Source: a virus
DNA length: 64,000 bases
Reading direction: 5' to 3' (one strand)
IMG/VR virus record: IMGVR_UViG_3300028563_000022
Span: 1 to 64,000 of that record
Both the position numbers and the translations under genes were made by a program. This document shows, piece after piece, positions 14,163-60,392 of the stretch. Position 1 is the first letter of the stretch; the number at the start of each line of letters is the position of its first letter. The notes beneath the pieces are model-generated. The model was not told the DNA's origin, did not search any database, and saw nothing but the letters and a program-made list of their open reading frames with translations.

Positions 14163-14263
14163 GCCCTTCTTTGGTGCGGCTACCGTTCATGGCGGGAAAA
14201 GGAGAACCCGGCTCCCTGCCGCACCAATTAACCGGAAAAACATCCTTCGGGAGGACATCAGTC

Positions 14264-37311: not shown

Positions 37312-37853
37312 CCTGTAGCGTCCTTGTAACTCATGATCCGCCCGGCACATTCCCTTATCTTCCCGTATCCCAGCGAAACCACCATATCCCAGAGAGTGTA
37401 CTCATCGAGGTCTGTTTCGCTGGCGTGGTTGGCACTCGGGCCGGGCGTCCAATTCTCGTGGGGGTTGATGCGGATGCAGATGGCGTGGAGGTCTCGCATG
37501 ACTTCAAGTTCTGACATGAACCGCATGTCATCCACGACAAGAAAGCATCCGGGCATGAGCTGGCAGCGTTCGGCCATCTTGCGGCTCCAGTAGTCTTTAT
37601 CAGAGGCCCGGCGGATTTCCGTACCCCACCATTGGAGGATTTCCCGGCCAGTCATCCGCCGGTTGCCGATTTGGAACTCCTCAGACTTGAACTCCTGGGT
37701 GTAAACGTCCCGGAGATACACGTTCAGCAACGCCGCCACTTCCTCTCTCAGAGCATCCGCGAAGGAGATTCTGTGCCCTGGACGAATCTGGAGCAGTTCA
37801 TCCGCCAGGGTGGTCTTTCCACAGCCCATTTTCCCGCTGAGCGCAATAATCAT
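37308..37853 (-). CDS. Deoxynucleoside monophosphate kinase
   Basis: A 181-aa P-loop kinase with Walker A GKMGCGKTT near the N-terminus, an RISFADALREEV substrate-binding stretch and VVDDMRF as the Walker B/lid element, similar to T4 gp1-type dNMP kinases. It would phosphorylate dNMPs for phage DNA synthesis. Overlaps ThyX by 4 nt, so the two nucleotide enzymes are coupled. Confidence 0.75.
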   Translation of the reverse strand: MIIALSGKMGCGKTTLADELLQIRPGHRISFADALREEVAALLNVYLRDVYTQEFKSEEFQIGNRRMTGREILQWWGTEIRRASDKDYWSRKMAERCQLMPGCFLVVDDMRFMSELEVMRDLHAICIRINPHENWTPGPSANHASETDLDEYTLWDMVVSLGYGKIRECAGRIMSYKDATG

Positions 37854-38629
37854 TTGGAATCCTCCTTCACCTGAATATCTTCAAACAGAACCGCCTCATC
37901 GCCGCGCTTCAGTTCCTTGAGCAACGGGGTCATGATCCGGCGCATTTCAGGATGGGCGGCCGGGGCCGTGCGCAGCTTGAAGATGTGGCGCCACTCCCGG
38001 GCGTTGGCCGTGACGACAATCTCCGTCTTGGTGGAGTTGGGCAGCACCTCGCGGGCCTGCTCGGGGCGCCAGCCGGCGTCAAGGAGGCCCAGGTACTTCA
38101 TCTCATCGTAATTCATAGCGTTCAGCCATGCGTAGTCACCACCGTCTGACACGGCGGCTTCGTGGTCCTCGTTCCACTCGTCTCTGCGCAAAGGCCACTC
38201 ACCCAGCAGGGCCTCGCCGCACCACACCGGCCGGATTACCACCAGCCCCTTCTTCTCGTAGTTCACATATCGGGTGCTTTCCTGGCTGAAGGCGCAGAGC
38301 CGGTGGCGCACGATCTCGTGGGTGACGCCGCGGTTCGTGATGAAGCGCACGGACATCATGGAGTGTTCCAGGACGGACTCATGGCCACGCTTGAGGAGCA
38401 TACAGATGAACTGGCTGGGTGGGTGTAAAGAGCACCCAGAGCAACTGTCATTGTCAGGGTTGGCACCATTTGCAGCACAGGAACCCTCAGCCACTACCCC
38501 CATAGAGTCTTTCGGCGCGGAACAAGTCCCCTTAGCCTCAGACTTGTAGCAGGTACGTCCAGCCAGTTCGATCAGGGCCGGGTCGATGTGCATGGCCAGG
38601 ATTTCATGTGATGGGTCAATGATGAGCAT
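37850..38629 (-). CDS. thyX: Flavin-dependent thymidylate synthase
   Basis: A 259-aa ThyX that would convert dUMP to dTMP with FAD and methylene-tetrahydrofolate. The signature is clear: ESVLEHSMMSVRFITNRGVTHEIVRHR, then SQESTRYVNY. ATG 38629 follows AGGAGG; the frame extends upstream without need. Unusually, between CYKSEAKG and QFICMLLKRGHESVLEH there is an insertion (about residues 34-72) with four Cys (36, 51, 63, 66), where other ThyX proteins have a short helix. Confidence 0.9.
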   Translation of the reverse strand: MLIIDPSHEILAMHIDPALIELAGRTCYKSEAKGTCSAPKDSMGVVAEGSCAANGANPDNDSCSGCSLHPPSQFICMLLKRGHESVLEHSMMSVRFITNRGVTHEIVRHRLCAFSQESTRYVNYEKKGLVVIRPVWCGEALLGEWPLRRDEWNEDHEAAVSDGGDYAWLNAMNYDEMKYLGLLDAGWRPEQAREVLPNSTKTEIVVTANAREWRHIFKLRTAPAAHPEMRRIMTPLLKELKRGDEAVLFEDIQVKEDSK

Positions 38630-38737: not shown

Positions 38738-38764
38738 CCCCCGCACAGATTGTCTGTGCGGGGG
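38738..38764. other. Perfect hairpin that matches a TIGR spacer pair
   Basis: A 12-bp perfect stem CCCCCGCACAGA / TCTGTGCGGGGG with a TTG loop, between the DUF1937-like gene and thyX. On the plus strand it is followed by TTTGTCATTT, but the flanking genes run leftward, where no T-run follows. Its core, CGCACAGATTGTCTGTGC (38742-38759), equals the two 9-nt spacers of the last unit of the main array (51209-51217 plus 51227-51235) joined end to end. Confidence 0.85.
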
Positions 38765-38772
38765 TTTGTCAT

Positions 38773-39105
38773 TTATGGCTGATGGAAGATGATCGTTTTC
38801 CCACTCTCCCGAGCCCACTTGATCTCGTCTTTCACGCCGCGGGAGTGTTCCCAGCCAGGGAGACAGAGGACGCGCAACTGGTCACAGGCTTCAAGGTGAA
38901 CCTTGTCTTGGGCGCCCCAAAACTCCCAAGTCCTGCAAGAGAACGGGAGCCAGGGGAGCAGAGCGTGGCCGTGGGTTATGGGGCTGAAGACCACATGCCC
39001 TTCAAGCATGAGTTCTGCGGCCTTGGCACTTAACGCCTCCGCGCGACTGTTTCGGATTGCCTCGTCATCGTGGGTGTAGGGCCCGGCCAGATAGATTCGT
39101 TTCAT
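38773..39105 (-). CDS. DUF1937-like nucleoside-processing protein
   Basis: A 110-aa protein with MKRIYLAGPYTH at the start and VVFSPITHGHAL, a pattern shared with DUF1937 and nucleoside 2-deoxyribosyltransferase-like folds. It probably acts in nucleotide metabolism or DNA base modification. ATG 39105 overlaps the upstream stop (ATGA) and follows GAGGAAAG. Confidence 0.65.
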   Translation of the reverse strand: MKRIYLAGPYTHDDEAIRNSRAEALSAKAAELMLEGHVVFSPITHGHALLPWLPFSCRTWEFWGAQDKVHLEACDQLRVLCLPGWEHSRGVKDEIKWARESGKTIIFHQP

Positions 39106-39983
39106 GCTGCTTTCCTCGCGTCTCTGTATTGTTCCCATGTGGTCGTCTTATAAGCGGCCTTCATGTTCACCCACCGGGCGAACGCCTTTTGCTCCGGTTC
39201 TGGTTCCGCATTGGTTGTGAAATCCCTGTACGGCTGGGCGAACGGATCAAGGTCCATGCCCTTGAGAAACCGAATCCGCTCCAGCGCGTCAGGGATGTCC
39301 TTTACCAGCGTGTAAACAAAGTATCGGCGGGGGGTTACGTTGTGCCAGCGCAGGAGCGTTACGGCCTTCTGGATGCTCTCCATCTGCCCTTTGCGGTCAC
39401 AGGCCAAGCGCAGGGGAGACAGCCACTTGAGGGCTGCAAGCCGGCGGGCGATCCCATCATCAATCAGCCGTGCGTCTAGGCCCTGGTTGAAGTCTACCTT
39501 GACCCCAAGCCGGGCCATCTTCTCAATCTGCTCAATCCCGTGAGGGTGGGCCAGGACGTTGTTGTCCATGAGCACCACATCCTTGTGGGCCAGGAACTCC
39601 TCAACGTCAGCGTGTGGCCTGATCTGTCCTTCCTTGCTGGGAACGATGCACCAGGGACAGGCGTTGGGGCATCCACGGGTCAGGAACCCCTGCGAGTGCG
39701 TGGAACTGTAGAGCCCGTAGTCAGGCATGGAGTGTTCAGCTTCATCCGGCAACCACGTTTCCAGGCCGTAGCCAGTGCCCCCACGCTGCACACCGCTGAA
39801 AAGCTGCTGATCCTCTGGAGTCCAAGTGAACACCTTGGAAGAGTAGACCATATCCGCCCACAGCAAGGGCTCGTACCACCCCACGGTGTCTCCCTTGGCC
39901 TTGTGCCAAGCGGACAGCTTCATAAGGGCCAAGTTGGGAAACTTGCCCCCGTCTGCATCGTGTAGGTGGATTAACAGGCTCAT
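39102..39983 (-). CDS. Radical SAM enzyme
   Basis: A 293-aa protein with the radical SAM cluster motif CxxxCxxC in TRGCPNACPWCIVPSKEG (about residue 105), then a TIM-barrel-like pattern including VVLMDNNVLAHP and VDFNQGLDARL. Enzymes of this class use a 4Fe-4S cluster to start radical chemistry; phage examples can modify DNA bases, nucleotides or RNA. It is coupled to the polymerase and DUF1937 genes by 4-nt overlaps, suggesting a role in nucleotide or DNA modification. Confidence 0.8.
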   Translation of the reverse strand: MSLLIHLHDADGGKFPNLALMKLSAWHKAKGDTVGWYEPLLWADMVYSSKVFTWTPEDQQLFSGVQRGGTGYGLETWLPDEAEHSMPDYGLYSSTHSQGFLTRGCPNACPWCIVPSKEGQIRPHADVEEFLAHKDVVLMDNNVLAHPHGIEQIEKMARLGVKVDFNQGLDARLIDDGIARRLAALKWLSPLRLACDRKGQMESIQKAVTLLRWHNVTPRRYFVYTLVKDIPDALERIRFLKGMDLDPFAQPYRDFTTNAEPEPEQKAFARWVNMKAAYKTTTWEQYRDARKAA

Positions 39984-49932: not shown

Positions 49933-50559
49933 TTAGCACACCACAGCGCGGGCAGCATGGAAAGGCTTGGGGTTCTTGGCCTTCGTGACCGTGGCCTTCA
50001 ATTTCTGAACCTGCTCCTTCAGCTCCCTGTTCTCCTCCTCCAGAAGCAGCCGCACCTCGTGTTCCTTCTGGTACATCGCCTGCCAGTCGTTGACCTGCTT
50101 CGTGATGGGCGCGGTCGCCTTGGCGAAGCGGGTCAGAACAGAGTCAAGGATGGCCGCGGGCACGGGGGACTTGCGCTTGTCTTGGGCGGACTGGATGGCC
50201 GCAAACACCTTGGGCATCTTCTCTTCCCCACAGCGACGGAGCGCCCGGACCACGAAGCCGCTACCGAACTGCTCTGACTCCTCGGGGAAGAGAAAGAAGG
50301 CCTGGCGCAGGCTATTGTAGAAGGCGAAGGTCAGGTTGAAGCGATCCTTCAGATACGTCGAGAAATCAGAGCCCCTATGGCCCGGGCTCTCCTTGAAACG
50401 AGAGGTGCGCTCCAGATAGAAGAGGGCACTGATGAACTGGCGCTGTGCGCTGTTCGCGGCCAAGCGGCCAGCTTCCACCGCGGTTTCAATTGATTGGATG
50501 TCCGAGTCATTGTAAAGAGACTTTAACTCTGTGAGGCTCATTGTCTTCTTGGTATCCAT
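49933..50559 (-). CDS. Helical protein with C-terminal coiled coil
   Basis: A 208-aa protein immediately downstream of the main repeat array. The N-terminal 150 residues are helical with many aromatic residues (DFSTYLKDRFNLTFAFYNSLRQAFF), and 150-195 form a coiled coil with a basic end. I recognise no family. Because it shares the leftward transcript with the TIGR-Tas locus, a role in array processing or as a partner protein deserves a test. Confidence 0.5.
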   Translation of the reverse strand: MDTKKTMSLTELKSLYNDSDIQSIETAVEAGRLAANSAQRQFISALFYLERTSRFKESPGHRGSDFSTYLKDRFNLTFAFYNSLRQAFFLFPEESEQFGSGFVVRALRRCGEEKMPKVFAAIQSAQDKRKSPVPAAILDSVLTRFAKATAPITKQVNDWQAMYQKEHEVRLLLEEENRELKEQVQKLKATVTKAKNPKPFHAARAVVC

Positions 50560-50589
50560 TTTCTTGCTCCGGTTTGTTAAAGGGTTTTT

Positions 50590-51237
50590 AGACGCAGGGG
50601 CTTTTTGGGTTTAACAGGTTGATTGACTCGCAGTTCGGTTCTAGATTTAAAACGCCAATTTACTCGCAGGGGCACACTAGGTTTAACCACAAACCTGACT
50701 CGCAACTCCACGCTAGGTTTTACAGCTACCTTTACTCGCAATTTTTGATTAGGTTTAACGCCATGAATTACTCGAATGCCTGAAATAAGTTTTAAGGAAT
50801 GCCTTACTCGCAGTCCCAAAATAAGTTTTACAGTTTGCCTTACTCGCATTCCCAAAATAAGTTTTACGGTTTGCCTTACTCGCAGTCCCGCTCTAGGTTT
50901 AAGGTGTTCAATTACTCGCAAGGTAAGGATAGGCTTAATATCCCGTTTTACTCGCAGTTATCCCGTAGGTTTAATGCATTGCGTTACTCGCATTTTATAC
51001 ATAGGCTTAAATCCAGCTCTTACTCGCAGCACCCGATTAGGTTTTAAAGGCTTATTTACTCGCACAGAGTTGGTAGATTTAATTCCACTCTTTACTCGCA
51101 ATTTTTGATTAGGTTTAAATTCACCAATTACTCGCATATATCCTTTAGGTTTCAATTACGCAGTTACTCGCACGACCACACTAGGTTTAACACCTCGATT
51201 TACTCGCACGCACAGATTAGGTTTTATGTCTGTGCTT
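50590..51237 (-). repeat. Main TIGR array, 18 units of 36 bp
   Basis: Eighteen back-to-back 36-bp units: edge TTACTCGCA (ACTCGCA plus the preceding TT), 9-nt spacer S1, loop TAGGTTTAA or a variant, 9-nt spacer S2 (plus-strand sense). Spacers S1/S2 by unit: U0 GGGGCTTTT/CAGGTTGAT; U1 GTTCGGTTC/AACGCCAAT; U2 GGGGCACAC/CCACAAACC; U3 ACTCCACGC/CAGCTACCT; U4 ATTTTTGAT/CGCCATGAA; U5 TGCCTGAAA/AGGAATGCC; U6 GTCCCAAAA/CAGTTTGCC; U7 TTCCCAAAA/CGGTTTGCC; U8 GTCCCGCTC/GGTGTTCAA; U9 AGGTAAGGA/TATCCCGTT; U10 GTTATCCCG/TGCATTGCG; U11 TTTTATACA/ATCCAGCTC; U12 GCACCCGAT/AAGGCTTAT; U13 CAGAGTTGG/TTCCACTCT; U14 ATTTTTGAT/ATTCACCAA; U15 TATATCCTT/ATTACGCAG; U16 CGACCACAC/CACCTCGAT; U17 CGCACAGAT/TGTCTGTGC. The geometry equals that of TIGR arrays, which yield 36-nt two-spacer guide RNAs. 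The transcribed strand is inferred from neighbours. Confidence 0.88.
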
Positions 51238-51249
51238 ACTCAAAAGTTC

Positions 51250-52107
51250 CTACGCCGCTTTTTCAGCAACGCCTTCAAAGTACGGGGGCTTGATGTAGTG
51301 GTCTTCGCTGTGCCCCATGATCGTGAAGGCGTAGGGCAGCGACACCGGCTTTCCATCGAGTGTCCGTGCCACGGTCCACATGTGTGCCAAGAACAGGCGC
51401 CCGGCCTCATTTCTGGCCATGTTCATGCGGTGCATCTTCGTGGCGTCCGGGTGGGTCTTCAACCGCTTCACAATCCGGGCGTCATAGAAGTCCCGATACA
51501 GGCACTTCTCCGGAGACAGCTTCATGAAGGATGTCCCAATAAGGTAGGCCAAGGTACGGCCGGCGGTAGACCAGTCGCATACCACTCCAGCTTTACGCTT
51601 AGGCTTCCGGCCCTCAGCATCGCAGTGGACGCCCATGAACTTCCACCAGGAGGAGATGCAGGGGAAGTCACGTTCGACGACCTTGTACTTCGTGTTGCCC
51701 TCACCTTTGGAACTCTTCTGGCAGGTCTCGCACCAGAAGGTGCCTTCCTGCTTTATCAACCCCGTGCCACACTCACACACCGGCACGAACTTGTAGTAGT
51801 ACATGACAATGAGCTTGGCCCCAAAGGAAGGTCCGATGCCGGGGACCTGCTTCAGCCATTGGGTCCACAAGGGCCAATGGATCAGCTCCTTTTCCATGCG
51901 CCGGACGAGGGCCCCTTTGACAGCCTCAAGACCCTTCGTGCCATTCTCGCCTCCGAGCAAGAAGTCATTCTTGGGGTTTACCTCGGGGTTCATCTGGAGA
52001 AGGCGTTGCTTGGTCCCGGTGATGAGGTCTGTGATGCCATCGTAAGTGCGCACCATGAACTTCAAGTAATTGATCGCTTCGATGTTTTCCTGGCTTGTTG
52101 GTTTCAT
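51250..52107 (-). CDS. Tas protein, Nop-domain, nuclease-less (TasA-type)
   Basis: A 285-aa protein embedded between two parts of the array. Residues 1-85 are helical; VPGIGP (88-93) opens a helix-hairpin-helix; FPCISSWWKFMGVH (148-161) and GRTLAYLIGTSFMK (183-196) correspond to the C-terminal part of IS110/IS116 transposases, the region that resembles the Nop fold of box C/D proteins. A zinc-ribbon-like insert (Cys 111, 113, 126, 129) lies in the middle. There is no DEDD/RuvC or HNH domain. In TIGR-Tas systems the Nop-domain protein binds the two-spacer guide; lacking a nuclease, this one would bind rather than cut DNA. Confidence 0.8.
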   Translation of the reverse strand: MKPTSQENIEAINYLKFMVRTYDGITDLITGTKQRLLQMNPEVNPKNDFLLGGENGTKGLEAVKGALVRRMEKELIHWPLWTQWLKQVPGIGPSFGAKLIVMYYYKFVPVCECGTGLIKQEGTFWCETCQKSSKGEGNTKYKVVERDFPCISSWWKFMGVHCDAEGRKPKRKAGVVCDWSTAGRTLAYLIGTSFMKLSPEKCLYRDFYDARIVKRLKTHPDATKMHRMNMARNEAGRLFLAHMWTVARTLDGKPVSLPYAFTIMGHSEDHYIKPPYFEGVAEKAA

Positions 52108-52136
52108 GTTCTGATCCTTTTAATTAGAGGGTTGGG

Positions 52137-52340
52137 GTTCGCACTCTGGGCTTCGGTTTAAAATAGGCAATCGCTCGCATCGGCTTTATGGGTTTCAGTT
52201 ATCCGTTTACTCGCAACCCCGTTCTAGATTTAAAGTGTTTTTTTACTCGTACTGGCATCTTAGATTTAAAGGTTATCATTACTCGCATTGCTTGCTTGGG
52301 TTTGACAAAGCGCCTCACTCTGTTCTTACTTTAAGTTTAA
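52137..52340 (-). repeat. Second TIGR array segment, about six units
   Basis: The same 36-bp plan continues upstream of the tas gene (leftward sense): unit starts at 52137, 52173, 52209, 52245, 52281 and a decayed one at 52317. S1/S2 pairs: V0 CTCTGGGCT/AATAGGCAA; V1 TCGGCTTTA/GTTATCCGT; V2 ACCCCGTTC/AGTGTTTTT; V3 CTGGCATCT/AGGTTATCA; V4 TTGCTTGCT/CAAAGCGCC. Edges and loops are more degenerate than in the main array (GTTCGCA, GCTCGCA, ACTCGTA; TCGGTTTAA, TGGGTTTCA, TGGGTTTGA), so this may be the older end. It lies between the probable promoter and the tas start. Confidence 0.82.
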
Positions 52341-52523: not shown

Positions 52524-53630
52524 TCATTTTACTAGCCCAAACCTCTTGAGTCTGCCTTGGAGCGCCGGGTAGCTGATACCCAAGGCTTCTGCTGTGCGCA
52601 TCCGGTTCCCCTTGTTGGCTTCTAGGGCTTCAACCAAGAGTGAACGCTTGGCCTCCCACAACTTGGCCTTGGCCAAGCGTTTTGCTTCCAGAGCCTCGAC
52701 CGCAGCCGAACGCCTAGCCAAGCGTTCGGCCAAGCGTTTGTGTTTTGCTTCCAGAGCCTCGACCGCAGCCGAACGCCTAGCCAAGCGTTCGGCCAAGCGT
52801 TTGTGTTTTGCTTCCAGAGCCTCGACCGCAGCCGAACGCCTAGCCAAGCGTTTGTGTTTTGCTTCCAGAGCCTCGACCTTGGCTAAGCGCATTGCCTCCT
52901 GAGCCTGAGCCTCAGCCAAGCGTTTGGCCTCAGTCACCCTGGAATCCGTGGGGGACACGCGCCACCCGGTTGAGGGGGGCTCAATAAACACCCCACGAAT
53001 CATGGAATTGTCAGACACTTTACAGGTTTCCACCCGAGACAGGGTTCCTTCTGGGGTAAGAACCAGAGCATAATGGGTGCCAGAAATAGCCGCAGCGGAT
53101 GTCTCCAGATTCACCAGGAAGACCCCCCAATCGTTGGTTATCATGGCGAGCTTGGCCATTGGGCCCCAGGAACTCTGGTACTGCTCACGGGGCAACCAGA
53201 TATCCTGGGTGTAACTCTCTTCAGTGATGACTTGTCCGTCCTGAGAAACCCCGGCCACCATCTTCTTAATGTAGATGAAGCGCATGATCTTTTCCACGGC
53301 TTCCTGGCCACCAAGCAGGTCATAACCACGCTGCCGGAACTCCTCTATGGAACACGCGCCAATCTTCATTGCTGCGCGCTCCATGACATCCTGCCGGGCG
53401 GTATATACCCCATCAAAGAGCTGGTAGACATGAGAGCGGGACACACCGAGGTTGGTGGCCATGTCAGGAGCTTTCAGTCCTTTCTCCATGGCGACAAAAG
53501 AGAGCTGCGCGAGCCACGCGACATAGGCCGGGTCTTTGATCCGCGGATTCTCCTCAATAACCTTCAAAAACGCTTCGTACCACTCCGAGTGGAGCTGGTC
53601 CGGCGTCCGTCCTTTTCTCTTGATCTTCAT
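52524..53630 (-). CDS. Repressor-like regulator with two HTH domains
   Basis: A 368-aa protein. Residues 53-79 (APDMATNLGVSRSHVYQLF) form an XRE-type helix-turn-helix. About 125-220 resembles the fold of S24/CI repressors (ISGTHYALVLTPEGTLSRVE) but lacks the catalytic Ser motif. Next comes a repetitive coiled coil built from 21-aa units (VEALEAKHKRLAERLARRSAA), and the end is a Fis-type HTH (NKGNRMRTAEALGISYPALQGRLKRF). ATG 53630 has GAGGAGA upstream. It is divergent from a Cro-like gene, the position of a lysogeny repressor. Activity as repressor is inferred. Confidence 0.65.
   Translation of the reverse strand: MKIKRKGRTPDQLHSEWYEAFLKVIEENPRIKDPAYVAWLAQLSFVAMEKGLKAPDMATNLGVSRSHVYQLFDGVYTARQDVMERAAMKIGACSIEEFRQRGYDLLGGQEAVEKIMRFIYIKKMVAGVSQDGQVITEESYTQDIWLPREQYQSSWGPMAKLAMITNDWGVFLVNLETSAAAISGTHYALVLTPEGTLSRVETCKVSDNSMIRGVFIEPPSTGWRVSPTDSRVTEAKRLAEAQAQEAMRLAKVEALEAKHKRLARRSAAVEALEAKHKRLAERLARRSAAVEALEAKHKRLAERLARRSAAVEALEAKRLAKAKLWEAKRSLLVEALEANKGNRMRTAEALGISYPALQGRLKRFGLVK
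52681..52857 (-). repeat. Coding minisatellite, 63-bp units
   Basis: DNA units start at 52681, 52744 and 52807, followed by a partial unit at 52858. Copies are identical over 63 bp except that the third lacks 12 bp. Identity at every base, synonymous sites included, indicates very recent expansion or ongoing slippage. Each unit adds 21 residues of coiled coil (six heptads per two units), lengthening the arm between the regulator's two DNA-binding domains without changing frame. Confidence 0.85.
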
Positions 53631-53680
53631 GGCTTGTCTCCTCGGGAAATTAAAGTTGACACTCGCATGTGTTCGGCCCC

Positions 53681-53715
53681 TCATTATCATTATTTTTGCT
53701 CCTGTCAAACAAAAA
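53681..53715 (-). promoter_or_regulatory. Repressor promoter with operator-like overlap
   Basis: Reading leftward: TTGACA (53708-53703), 16 nt, TAATGA (53686-53681), about 50 bp before the regulator ATG. A variant of the dispersed motif (TTTTTGTTTGACA, complement of 53703-53715) covers the -35 box, as expected for autoregulation. The rest of the 170-bp divergent region is AT-rich and contains the near-palindrome ACAAAATTTGT. Confidence 0.55.
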
Positions 53716-56318: not shown

Positions 56319-56360
56319 AAACGTACAAAGGGAATATTCAATGATTTCAGCCGTGTTCAA

Positions 56361-56391
56361 ATGTTCAAAATGCTCCCGGGCGTTTGAACAT
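56361..56391. repeat. Inverted repeat beside iteron 1
   Basis: ATGTTCAAA (56361-56369), 13-nt loop with CCCGGG, TTTGAACAT (56383-56391): a perfect 9-bp inverted repeat directly after the first iteron copy. It could be a binding site for a dimeric initiator or a cruciform. Confidence 0.5.
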
Positions 56392-56433
56392 TTATTTGTC
56401 AATTATTTCAGCCGTGTTCAAAAACTCGAAAAA

Positions 56434-56460
56434 TGTACGTCGCATACGTACACATTTTTT
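56434..56460 (+). terminator. Terminator after primase-helicase
   Basis: TGTACGT, loop CGCAT, ACGTACA, then CATTTTTT. A 7-bp perfect stem (extendable with mismatches) followed by a six-T run is a good intrinsic terminator for the rightward replication transcript. Confidence 0.65.
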
Positions 56461-56739
56461 GAGAAAAGTTAATAAATTCAGCCGTGTTCAAATGTTCAAA
56501 TGTTCACCCCGTAGGGGTACGGGTCTTAACCGCTTCGCTGGACCACTGCCCCCCGGGAGCTTACGCATCCCCGAGTGTGAACATGGCTAAGCAAACTCTA
56601 TGCCAACCGAGCCGGAAGAATACCGGCCTCGAAAGGGAGGATATAAAAACTAGGGGTTACCCTACCTTGAATCGAAGGGATTTTATATCAGGTAAAGGAT
56701 AAAAGTTAAGTTCCATACACGGAAAAGGAGCAGCGTAAC

Positions 56740-57332: not shown

Positions 57333-57399
57333 CGAGTCGGGTTTAACCTGGCAAAAGAGAGCCCCGACTCGTTTTTGAACGAGTCGGGGTTTCGGTTTT
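57333..57399. terminator. Strong terminator with competing upstream segment
   Basis: CCCCGACTCGTT (57362-57373), loop TTTG, AACGAGTCGGGG (57378-57389), then TTTCGGTTTTC: a 12-bp perfect stem serving the convergent ends of rusA and the SNF2 helicase. An extra copy of CGAGTCGGG at 57333-57341 can pair with the first arm instead, enclosing a GGGTTTAACC motif. The two pairings exclude each other, as in attenuators. Confidence 0.65.
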
Positions 57400-57484
57400 C
57401 TTGTGACTTATTTGCTGTGAAGGGGCTTCGGCTGATGAGGTGAAAGCGGGTAAAAGGTTAATTATTTCAGCCGTGTTCAAATGT

Positions 57485-59092
57485 TCAAATGCCCAATTTC
57501 GAGTCCAGAATCTTTCCGATGTCATGGGCCTTCCCAGCCGCGCAACTCAGGATCGTGGCGTCCAGCGACTCCGCGACCACCAACACATGGATGTAGACAC
57601 CATGCGCCTGGCCAATCCTGTGGCAACGGTCCACGGCCTGCTCATTCTCACCCGGCACCCATGAACCCTCGGCCAACACCACGTTCGATGAGCTCGTCAA
57701 AGTCAGGCCAGTCCCGGCCGCCTGGAGATTGCCAACAAACACTTGGCAAGAGGCGTCATTCTGGAAAGCATCCACCGCGGCCTGGCGTTTCGTGTCGTTC
57801 AATCCACCAAGTACCATGACCGCGCCATAGGGTTTTAACCCCTCGGTCAAAAGCTGGATCACATCCCGGTGCCAGCCGAAGACCACGACTTTCTTGGCAC
57901 CGTCTTTAAGCAGCCCCTTGACGTACTCGATGACCAACGGGGCCTTGGCGATGCCCATTTCTCGCCGGACTTCGGCCAGGGGTGAACCCGCCGGCACGCC
58001 GCTGTTCAGAATCTCCCGGGCGCTAAAGGGTTTTTCCTTGTCCAGTACCTTCTTGGTCTGAGCATCAGCGTCGAAAACTACCATTTTATGGAGCTTCGCC
58101 GGGAGCTGTTTCAAAACATCTGCCTTGCTCCTGCGGACCATGAACCCGGCGCGCAACCGCAACCCGAGCTCAGTTTCATTCCGACTACCTTTTACCCGGT
58201 AGTCATATTGGTCCCACATGAAATAGCTGAATCTGTCCGCGAACTCCTCGAAGCCCCGGCAGTCGGCGATCAGGTGAGGTGCGCACGCCCGCAGAATGGG
58301 CCACAGCTCGGCCGCCCGGTTTGGTGCTGGGGTGCCACTCAGAAAAAGGATTTGGCCCGCGGCGTTGACCAGTGGCTCGACGTACCGGGTGCCAAGGATT
58401 TTCTTGGACCGCTTGGACTTGGGCTCCTTCAGTGCATGGGCCTCGTCAAAGATCATCAGGTCATAAGGACCAAAGGCCCGCAATTTCTCCGCGTGCTTGA
58501 CCGCAGCCTCGTAAGACACCACGGTCCAGGTCGGATTCGTTTCACTTCGGAGTAATTTATTCTTCAAAGACCGAAAGATTGCTGTGTAGGGGTTGTTGAT
58601 CCCCCAAAGGGCCACTTCCCTGGTCCAGTTGATCCGCAAGTGAGCGGGGCATACGACCAGGACATTCCTGTCCTTCTTGACGTTGGCCACTCCTATCGCC
58701 TGGGCTGTTTTCCCCAGGCCCGGCTCGTCGGCAATGTAGGCAACTTTCAGGCTATGCGCATACTCGACCCCGGCCCGCTGGTATGGGTAAAGTTCCATCC
58801 CTTCGGGCAGGGGTACTTTGAAGTTTGAGGTCTCTGCGTAGGACATTTCCAATCGCTGCCGAAAGGCAGCAAGCTCGGGCAATCGAGGTGCCAAGCGGTA
58901 AGCGATGGCCTGGTCACTGGTGGCGTACTCGTGATGCAACGGGCTCATCTTGTACCCGGCGGACTTGGCGATGCCCCGATCCACAAACGCCCCGCGCCAG
59001 ACATACAGGCCCGTGCGGAAGCCATCCGAGGCTTTCGGATAGAACGTCACCTGTTCGGTACGGTCGGAGACTATGGCTTGATCGGTGCTCAT
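57485..59092 (-). CDS. SNF2-family helicase
   Basis: A 535-aa superfamily 2 ATPase of the SNF2 type: motif I ADEPGLGKTAQAIG, motif II DEAHAL, motif III LSGTPAPN, then the C-terminal helicase lobe with LQAAGTGLTLTSSSNVV and motif VI QAVDRCHRIGQ. Such phage proteins remodel protein-DNA complexes during replication or late transcription. It runs opposite to the replication operon; its 3' end borders the fourth iteron copy. Confidence 0.9.
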   Translation of the reverse strand: MSTDQAIVSDRTEQVTFYPKASDGFRTGLYVWRGAFVDRGIAKSAGYKMSPLHHEYATSDQAIAYRLAPRLPELAAFRQRLEMSYAETSNFKVPLPEGMELYPYQRAGVEYAHSLKVAYIADEPGLGKTAQAIGVANVKKDRNVLVVCPAHLRINWTREVALWGINNPYTAIFRSLKNKLLRSETNPTWTVVSYEAAVKHAEKLRAFGPYDLMIFDEAHALKEPKSKRSKKILGTRYVEPLVNAAGQILFLSGTPAPNRAAELWPILRACAPHLIADCRGFEEFADRFSYFMWDQYDYRVKGSRNETELGLRLRAGFMVRRSKADVLKQLPAKLHKMVVFDADAQTKKVLDKEKPFSAREILNSGVPAGSPLAEVRREMGIAKAPLVIEYVKGLLKDGAKKVVVFGWHRDVIQLLTEGLKPYGAVMVLGGLNDTKRQAAVDAFQNDASCQVFVGNLQAAGTGLTLTSSSNVVLAEGSWVPGENEQAVDRCHRIGQAHGVYIHVLVVAESLDATILSCAAGKAHDIGKILDSKLGI

Positions 59093-60152: not shown

Positions 60153-60263
60153 TTAACCATACTTTCGGAGGGCGAGCCTGATGCCTTCGGCAAGCCGTAG
60201 ACAATAAACGTAATGATTACGGTATGTTATGCGGTATCCTGGGCCGATGTGTTTGACCCCCAT
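60153..60263 (-). CDS. 36-aa basic peptide gene
   Basis: A short gene with AGAGGAG before its ATG; the product is basic and aromatic (GVKHIGPGYRITYRNHYVYC...). Its promoter-proximal part and first 20 or so codons were duplicated upstream as part of a 95-bp tandem repeat, giving a truncated copy at 60287-60358 that ends after 23 codons. Confidence 0.45.
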   Translation of the reverse strand: MGVKHIGPGYRITYRNHYVYCLRLAEGIRLALRKYG

Positions 60264-60389
60264 GGTGTTTTGCTCCTCTTTTCGGGTTAAACAAGACAAT
60301 AAACGTAATGATTACGGTATGTTATGCGGTATCCTGGGCCGATGTGTTTGACCCCCATGGTGTTTTGCTCCTCTTTTCGGGTTAAACAA
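60200..60389. repeat. Perfect 95-bp tandem duplication
   Basis: Two identical 95-bp copies, 60200-60294 and 60295-60389. Each includes an operator-like motif (60286-60297 and 60381-60392), a ribosome-binding site, an ATG and the first 23 codons of a small gene. Sequence identity implies a very recent event. The duplication doubles the operator and creates a truncated peptide frame. Confidence 0.9.
60286..60297 (-). promoter_or_regulatory. Dispersed operator-like motif, site 11
   Basis: GTCTTGTTTAAC read leftward, inside the duplicated region, 23 nt before the start of the 36-aa gene. Confidence 0.55.
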
Positions 60390-60392
60390 GAC
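60381..60392 (-). promoter_or_regulatory. Dispersed operator-like motif, site 12
   Basis: GTCTTGTTTAAC read leftward, second copy created by the 95-bp duplication; its first base touches the stop codon of the gene ending at 60392. Confidence 0.55.

Follow-up and report, generated by a model that had tools for sequence, protein, structure and literature searches.

In TIGR-TasA systems, arrays are processed into 36-nt tigRNAs, which are bound by Tas (Faure et al. 2025, PMC12045711), and TIGR arrays typically begin with a 5'-truncated edge repeat (PMC12045711). TasR and TasH bind with spacer A paired to one DNA strand and spacer B, next to it, to the other; gaps of 0-2 bp are tolerated (PMC12045711). 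No adaptation genes are known for TIGR, the natural targets of TIGR-Tas and the origin of its spacers are unknown, and TasA, which lacks a nuclease, has no clear role (PMC12045711). Spacers traceable beyond chance to a site in their own genome offer a direct lead on both TIGR targets and spacer origin.

The locus analysed here lies in a viral stretch of 64,000 nucleotides, referred to below as the window, and is an ordinary TIGR-TasA: a nuclease-free Nop protein with two flanking dual-repeat arrays (Table 1). By phmmer, phrog and Foldseek, the protein is a Tas (Nop-domain) protein. It matches TasR (PDB 9mty) with an E-value of 1.8e-21 in phmmer and phrog_4285 with an E-value of 1.2e-19, and the best solved Foldseek matches of its AlphaFold2 model (pLDDT 85) are TasR 9mty (E 1.4e-10) and TasH 9vzx (E 4.3e-8), followed by IS110-type recombinases (IS621, ISCro4) and, weakly, Nop5p. 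No Pfam match to a RuvC or HNH nuclease domain was found, and the model, which begins in a coiled coil and has only a small beta insertion, agrees with the initial annotation that the effector has no nuclease domain; the protein is therefore a TasA. A zinc-ribbon-like insertion (CxC...CxxC, about residues 105-145) separates the PGIG motif from the C-terminal domain. It is present in two of the 24 aligned Tas proteins, the other being that of locus L055 (L055:1336-2187), the nearest relative found of the window TasA (about 46% identity). Close relatives of the phage were found neither via tasA, nor via the array pattern, which gave 48 loci with one match each, mostly by chance, nor via thyX, and none was recovered by a plasmid search or by searching for the U17 unit in viral contigs.

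Table 1. Coordinates of the TIGR-TasA locus and of the intergenic hairpin region in the window.
Feature	Position	Strand	Remarks
thyX, flavin-dependent thymidylate synthase	37850..38629	-	Pfam Thy1, E 4e-44; downstream of the hairpin on the minus strand
Perfect hairpin, 12-bp arms, 3-nt loop	38738..38764		Intergenic; core 38742-38759 equals the 18 bp of U17; -24 kcal/mol
DUF1937 / nucleoside 2-deoxyribosyltransferase-like gene	38773..39138	-	Pfam DUF1937, E 4.6e-18; phrog_355, E 4.3e-19
Long dual-repeat TIGR array, 18 units of 36 nt	50588..51241	-	Downstream of tasA; edge TGCGAGTAA, loop TTAAACCTA (TAAAACCTA in U17)
U17 unit, first in sense orientation	51209..51235	-	Spacer A GCACAGACA 51227-51235; loop TAAAACCTA 51218-51226; spacer B ATCTGTGCG 51209-51217
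5'-truncated edge repeat GAGTAA, opening the long array	51236..51241	-	Directly behind the tasA stop codon
tasA, 285-aa Nop-type Tas protein without nuclease domain	51250..52107	-	Between the two arrays
Short dual-repeat TIGR array, 5 units	52135..52323	-	Upstream of tasA

Next to tas, edge and loop repeats alternate, separated by 9-nt spacers and with a period of about 36 nt, in 23 units distributed over the two arrays. In related arrays, read in the sense of tas, the edge is [AT]GCGAGCCA and the loop AGAAAACCA or TGAAACCTA; in the window, edge TGCGAGTAA and loop TTAAACCTA are read on the minus strand, which is also the sense of tasA. Since it is the minus strand that agrees with the repeats of the relatives in tas sense, the arrays are read from it, and transcription of the array from the plus strand was rejected. 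The guide is therefore the reverse complement of the letters first reported, and the first unit behind tasA is U17. As regards the edge and loop assignment of U17 in the initial annotation, the 9/9/9/9 register stood, while strand and unit order had to be reversed, U17 being first and not last. On the plus strand, U17 reads TTACTCGCA (51200-51208), CGCACAGAT (51209-51217), TAGGTTTTA (51218-51226), TGTCTGTGC (51227-51235) and TTACTC (51236-51241). In TIGR-TasA, edge and loop carry covarying box D (start) and box C (end) motifs. The repeats of the window start with TG or TT and end in TAA or CTA, those of the relatives start with TG or AG and end in CCA; edge and loop of the window are alike but not identical in these start and end motifs. 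TIGR-TasA arrays characteristically close with a 3'-truncated edge and a rho-independent terminator; the long array, which runs into the next gene at 50559, has no terminator-like site at its 3' end.

Three adjacent units of the long array (50768-50875; in minus sense GGCAAACCG/TTTTGGGAA, GGCAAACTG/TTTTGGGAC and GGCATTCCT/TTTCAGGCA) are near-duplicates sharing their own loop variant, TAAAACTTA, with a similar series in L138; by appearance, they are duplicates or variants of a single target. Units 50732-50767 and 51092-51127 share an identical spacer (ATTTTTGAT on the plus strand, ATCAAAAAT as spacer B in sense) with different partner spacers, so the halves of a unit can be exchanged independently. 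Concerning other repeats and RNA elements of the window, about four copies of TTTCAGCCGTGTTCAAATGTTCAAA, possibly an operator or replication iterons, are found in intergenic DNA at 56340-56500 and 57460-57490, and a perfect 95-bp tandem duplication (two copies, ending in TTCGGGTTAAACA) lies at 60199-60392. Perfect 63-bp tandem repeats (2.8 copies, 52679-52852) give a repeated coiled segment to the product of the minus-strand gene 52524-53708, which has a Fis-type C-terminal HTH, and a match to the Rfam int-alpA RNA, barely over the gathering score, was obtained at 14173-14239 in the structural gene region.

Joined without the loop repeat, the two 9-nt spacers of U17 give the 18-mer CGCACAGATTGTCTGTGC, whose single exact occurrence, in the window as in the whole 64,276-base record, is at 38742-38759 on the plus strand. 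The letters and coordinates first reported for this gapless joining, inside a perfect hairpin between the DUF1937-like gene and thyX, are correct. Identity ends exactly at both spacer borders (nucleotide A vs. C on the left, T vs. G on the right), and the match belongs to the same class, A and B continuous, whichever strand is read. The initial annotation held an exact 18-nt match to be very unlikely by chance, and the calculations bear it out: allowing for base composition, 4.1e-5 exact A+B matches are expected from 23 units, and random spacer pairs gave no exact A+B match in 199,985 trials, or two when all four joinings were counted. Among the approximately 64,000 gapped words of the window (9 nt, a 9-nt skip, 9 nt), just one has an exact contiguous 18-mer elsewhere, namely U17, in repeat register. 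None of the other units among the 23 matched the window with better than two mismatches (four joinings, gaps of -2 to +3). The U17 match is thus real, not due to chance, and needs a cause.

The matched hairpin, one of a handful of perfect 12-bp hairpins in the window, lies 8 nt beyond the stop codon of the DUF1937 gene and is followed by a T-rich tail on the plus strand only. It had been considered that it might prove a widespread repeat unrelated to the array, but the 18-mer had no occurrence across 2.9 million viral contigs and none in 49 related TIGR records, relaxed spacing included. The looser pattern CCGCACAGA-N2-6-TCTGTGCGG was found in 8 viral contigs with unrelated flanks, which is about chance level by our estimate. 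Judging from these searches, the hairpin is not a widespread or common element. Another hairpin, CCCCGACTCGTTTTTGAACGAGTCGGGG at 57359-57392, is strong, bidirectional and terminator-like and lies between convergent genes; its arm AACGAGTCG resembles the TIGR edge repeats of other phages.

By the known TasR/TasH rule, 38742-38759 is not a target. Given the 8-nt 3' overhangs, the expected target strand would read A and then the reverse complement of B, A+rc(B). Neither this order nor the opposite one, rc(B)+A, which was searched as well, was found for U17 in the window with up to 3 mismatches and gaps of -2 to +3. At the 38742 site, both spacers match the same strand, contrary to the opposite-strand tandem rule of TasR and TasH. 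The proposal that the two spacers describe one continuous target therefore conflicts with the A+rc(B) rule (PMC12045711), and it has no generality in related arrays. The site is nearly palindromic, as first noted, and the suggestion built on this, that each spacer could pair with either strand, holds imperfectly (8/9 for B, 7/9 for A) and at overlapping, not tandem, positions. An A+rc(B) target would be a direct repeat, whereas the site is an inverted repeat, so that the second pairing falls on the same half and not on the neighbouring one; a rescue of the two-strand geometry by the palindrome was rejected on this ground. The dsDNA geometry of TasR and TasH cannot be met at the hairpin.

The comparison set, obtained from scans for related loci, comprised 1,152 units from 69 loci, and self-matches were searched in 2.9 Mb of their own DNA outside the arrays, most remaining parts of the larger contigs included. 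With four joinings and eight gaps, no exact self-match was found for any of the 1,151 other units, U17 being the sole match, and the numbers of one- and two-mismatch self-matches were close to those of re-paired spacers. When all units were compared with all contigs, 4 exact matches in 12 classes were obtained vs. 1 in shuffles, with no favoured geometry. Self-matching is accordingly no habit of TIGR arrays, since neither own-DNA matching nor cross-matching is enriched; general self-targeting with any joining or gap was discarded, as was targeting among TIGR-bearing phages, for which the cross-matching of the 2.9 Mb gave no enrichment. The check proposed at the outset, searching the 23 spacer pairs as joined 18-mers against the phage, returned U17 alone, and the related arrays' own pairs, searched likewise, added nothing to it; that other pairs would never match contiguous 18-mers in related genomes, named beforehand as an outcome that would count against the idea, is largely what was observed. 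The match was first taken to point to self-targeting, which it does not demonstrate, the known geometry being absent and no other unit matching its own genome. The negative result is itself useful: TIGR arrays in general do not choose spacers by self-matching. With no second self-matching unit among the 1,152, no acquisition rule is visible.

U17 is also unusual in its folding. Its run of complementarity between A and B is 7 bases, the longest among the 1,152 units and equalled by no other, where about 0.6 units with a run of at least 7 are expected from re-pairing. Such a run, unique to U17, is as expected if the unit derives from a hairpin. Its predicted RNA fold (-11.4 kcal/mol vs. an array mean of -3.9; z -3.07) is the most self-paired of the array; the RNA should fold on itself and would hide both spacers, which makes its use as a guide doubtful. 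Across 120 array starts, self-complementarity is not a general trait of the first unit, and hairpin first units as a rule were ruled out on this basis. Three pairs of related phages (L116/L117, L115/L114 and L109/L121) have ordered shared TIGR units with interior gains and losses and point changes in spacers, and the first unit is kept wherever array starts are comparable (L116/L117, L109/L121). The first position of U17 is therefore no mark of recency; that the newest unit stands at the array start was rejected, since L116 and L117 share their first unit while interior units turn over. These ordered comparisons form a starting set for the study of TIGR array evolution.

Several explanations of the match were weighed. 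The one we prefer, tentatively and at somewhat less than an even chance, is that U17 is a spacer pair copied, in a TIGR-TasA system, from the phage's own hairpin between thyX and the DUF1937 gene. The continuous inner 18 nt of the hairpin would have become spacers A and B, split by the loop repeat, and U17 would have arisen by capture and not by drift. The hairpin is the likelier source, as it runs 4-5 bp past the match on both sides, from which we infer the direction of copying. Against this reading stand the single self-match among 1,152 units, the lack of known adaptation genes for TIGR (PMC12045711), the retention of first units in related arrays, and the failure of the searches to recover a relative showing the unit before and after. 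Rather unlikely, in comparison, is the initial proposal of functional self-targeting, in which the U17 tigRNA brings TasA to 38742-38759 and controls the DUF1937/thyX junction without cleavage. Selection for guide-target pairing would be expected to preserve such an 18/18 identity, genes of nucleotide metabolism flank the site on both sides, and self-binding would be non-lethal because TasA has no nuclease; however, the known geometry of A and B in tandem on opposite strands (PMC12045711) is lacking at the site, the U17 RNA is strongly self-paired, and such a match is seen in no other array. That U17 is aimed at a competitor phage or a host sharing the hairpin, the self-match being incidental to the shared sequence, seems improbable: TIGR arrays have no known prey and the near-duplicate units resemble variants for conserved targets, but the 18-mer is absent from the viral contigs and related TIGR records searched, the similar hairpins in 8 contigs fit chance, and the geometry problem stays.

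U17 might instead be kept as an RNA hairpin and not as a guide, capping the 3' end of the tasA message much as the other hairpin follows the DUF1937 stop codon. Each of the two hairpins follows a minus-strand stop codon at a distance of 8-15 nt, U17 folds well and its first edge is truncated. We give this little credence, since first units at the 120 array starts show no general self-complementarity and since a match ending at the spacer borders around an intact loop repeat would be left unexplained. As for chance, the match is single, its site was singled out after inspection, and a few exact matches to unrelated contigs do occur across 69 loci and many geometries; coincidence is nevertheless very improbable given an expectation of 4e-5 for the A+B geometry in the window, a sole gapped match among about 64,000 words that falls on a unit, and its landing on one of few perfect 12-bp hairpins.

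If the spacer pair is active, TasA-tigRNA would act at the single-stranded hairpin, in replicating DNA or in RNA, without cutting and with both spacers on the plus strand; this would be a mode undescribed for Tas proteins, namely same-strand pairing on ssDNA or RNA. If it is inactive, U17 would be a fossil of spacer formation. A broader reading, which we consider unlikely, would make U17 the first visible source of a TIGR spacer pair, new units being formed from a continuous 18-nt stretch, in this case a hairpin, that the loop repeat cuts in two, and TasA pairing with only one strand of DNA or RNA of the phage that encodes it, in place of the two-strand geometry of TasR and TasH. The disagreement between same-strand, continuous joining and the known targeting rule makes a sharp test possible.

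Compared with known systems, the locus is closest to TIGR-TasA (Faure et al. 2025, PMC12045711), with which it shares a phage-borne, solo Nop-domain protein without nuclease, flanked by dual-repeat arrays whose 36-nt units alternate edge and loop repeats with spacers, each 9 nt long, and a 5'-truncated first edge. It differs in one unit, whose spacers, once joined, are identical to an uninterrupted 18-mer of the same genome, in edge and loop repeats ending in TAA/CTA and not in CCA, and in the zinc-ribbon-like insertion, which only L055 has as well. TIGR-TasR and TIGR-TasH (PDB 9mty, 9vzx, 9w04) have the same Nop fold and tigRNA arrays, and the window protein matches them best in both sequence and fold. 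Their proteins, however, include a RuvC or HNH nuclease, and target binding places A and B on opposite strands, a layout that the 38742 site does not offer. Box C/D sRNPs and IS110 bridge RNAs are alike in their Nop-type RNA-binding fold (IS621, ISCro4 and, weakly, Nop5p in Foldseek), and have another RNA architecture and function. In CRISPR, self-targeting spacers are guides that match the genome carrying them. The U17 guide likewise matches its own genome, but as one split guide, in a system with no known adaptation genes and no PAM, and outside the known binding geometry.
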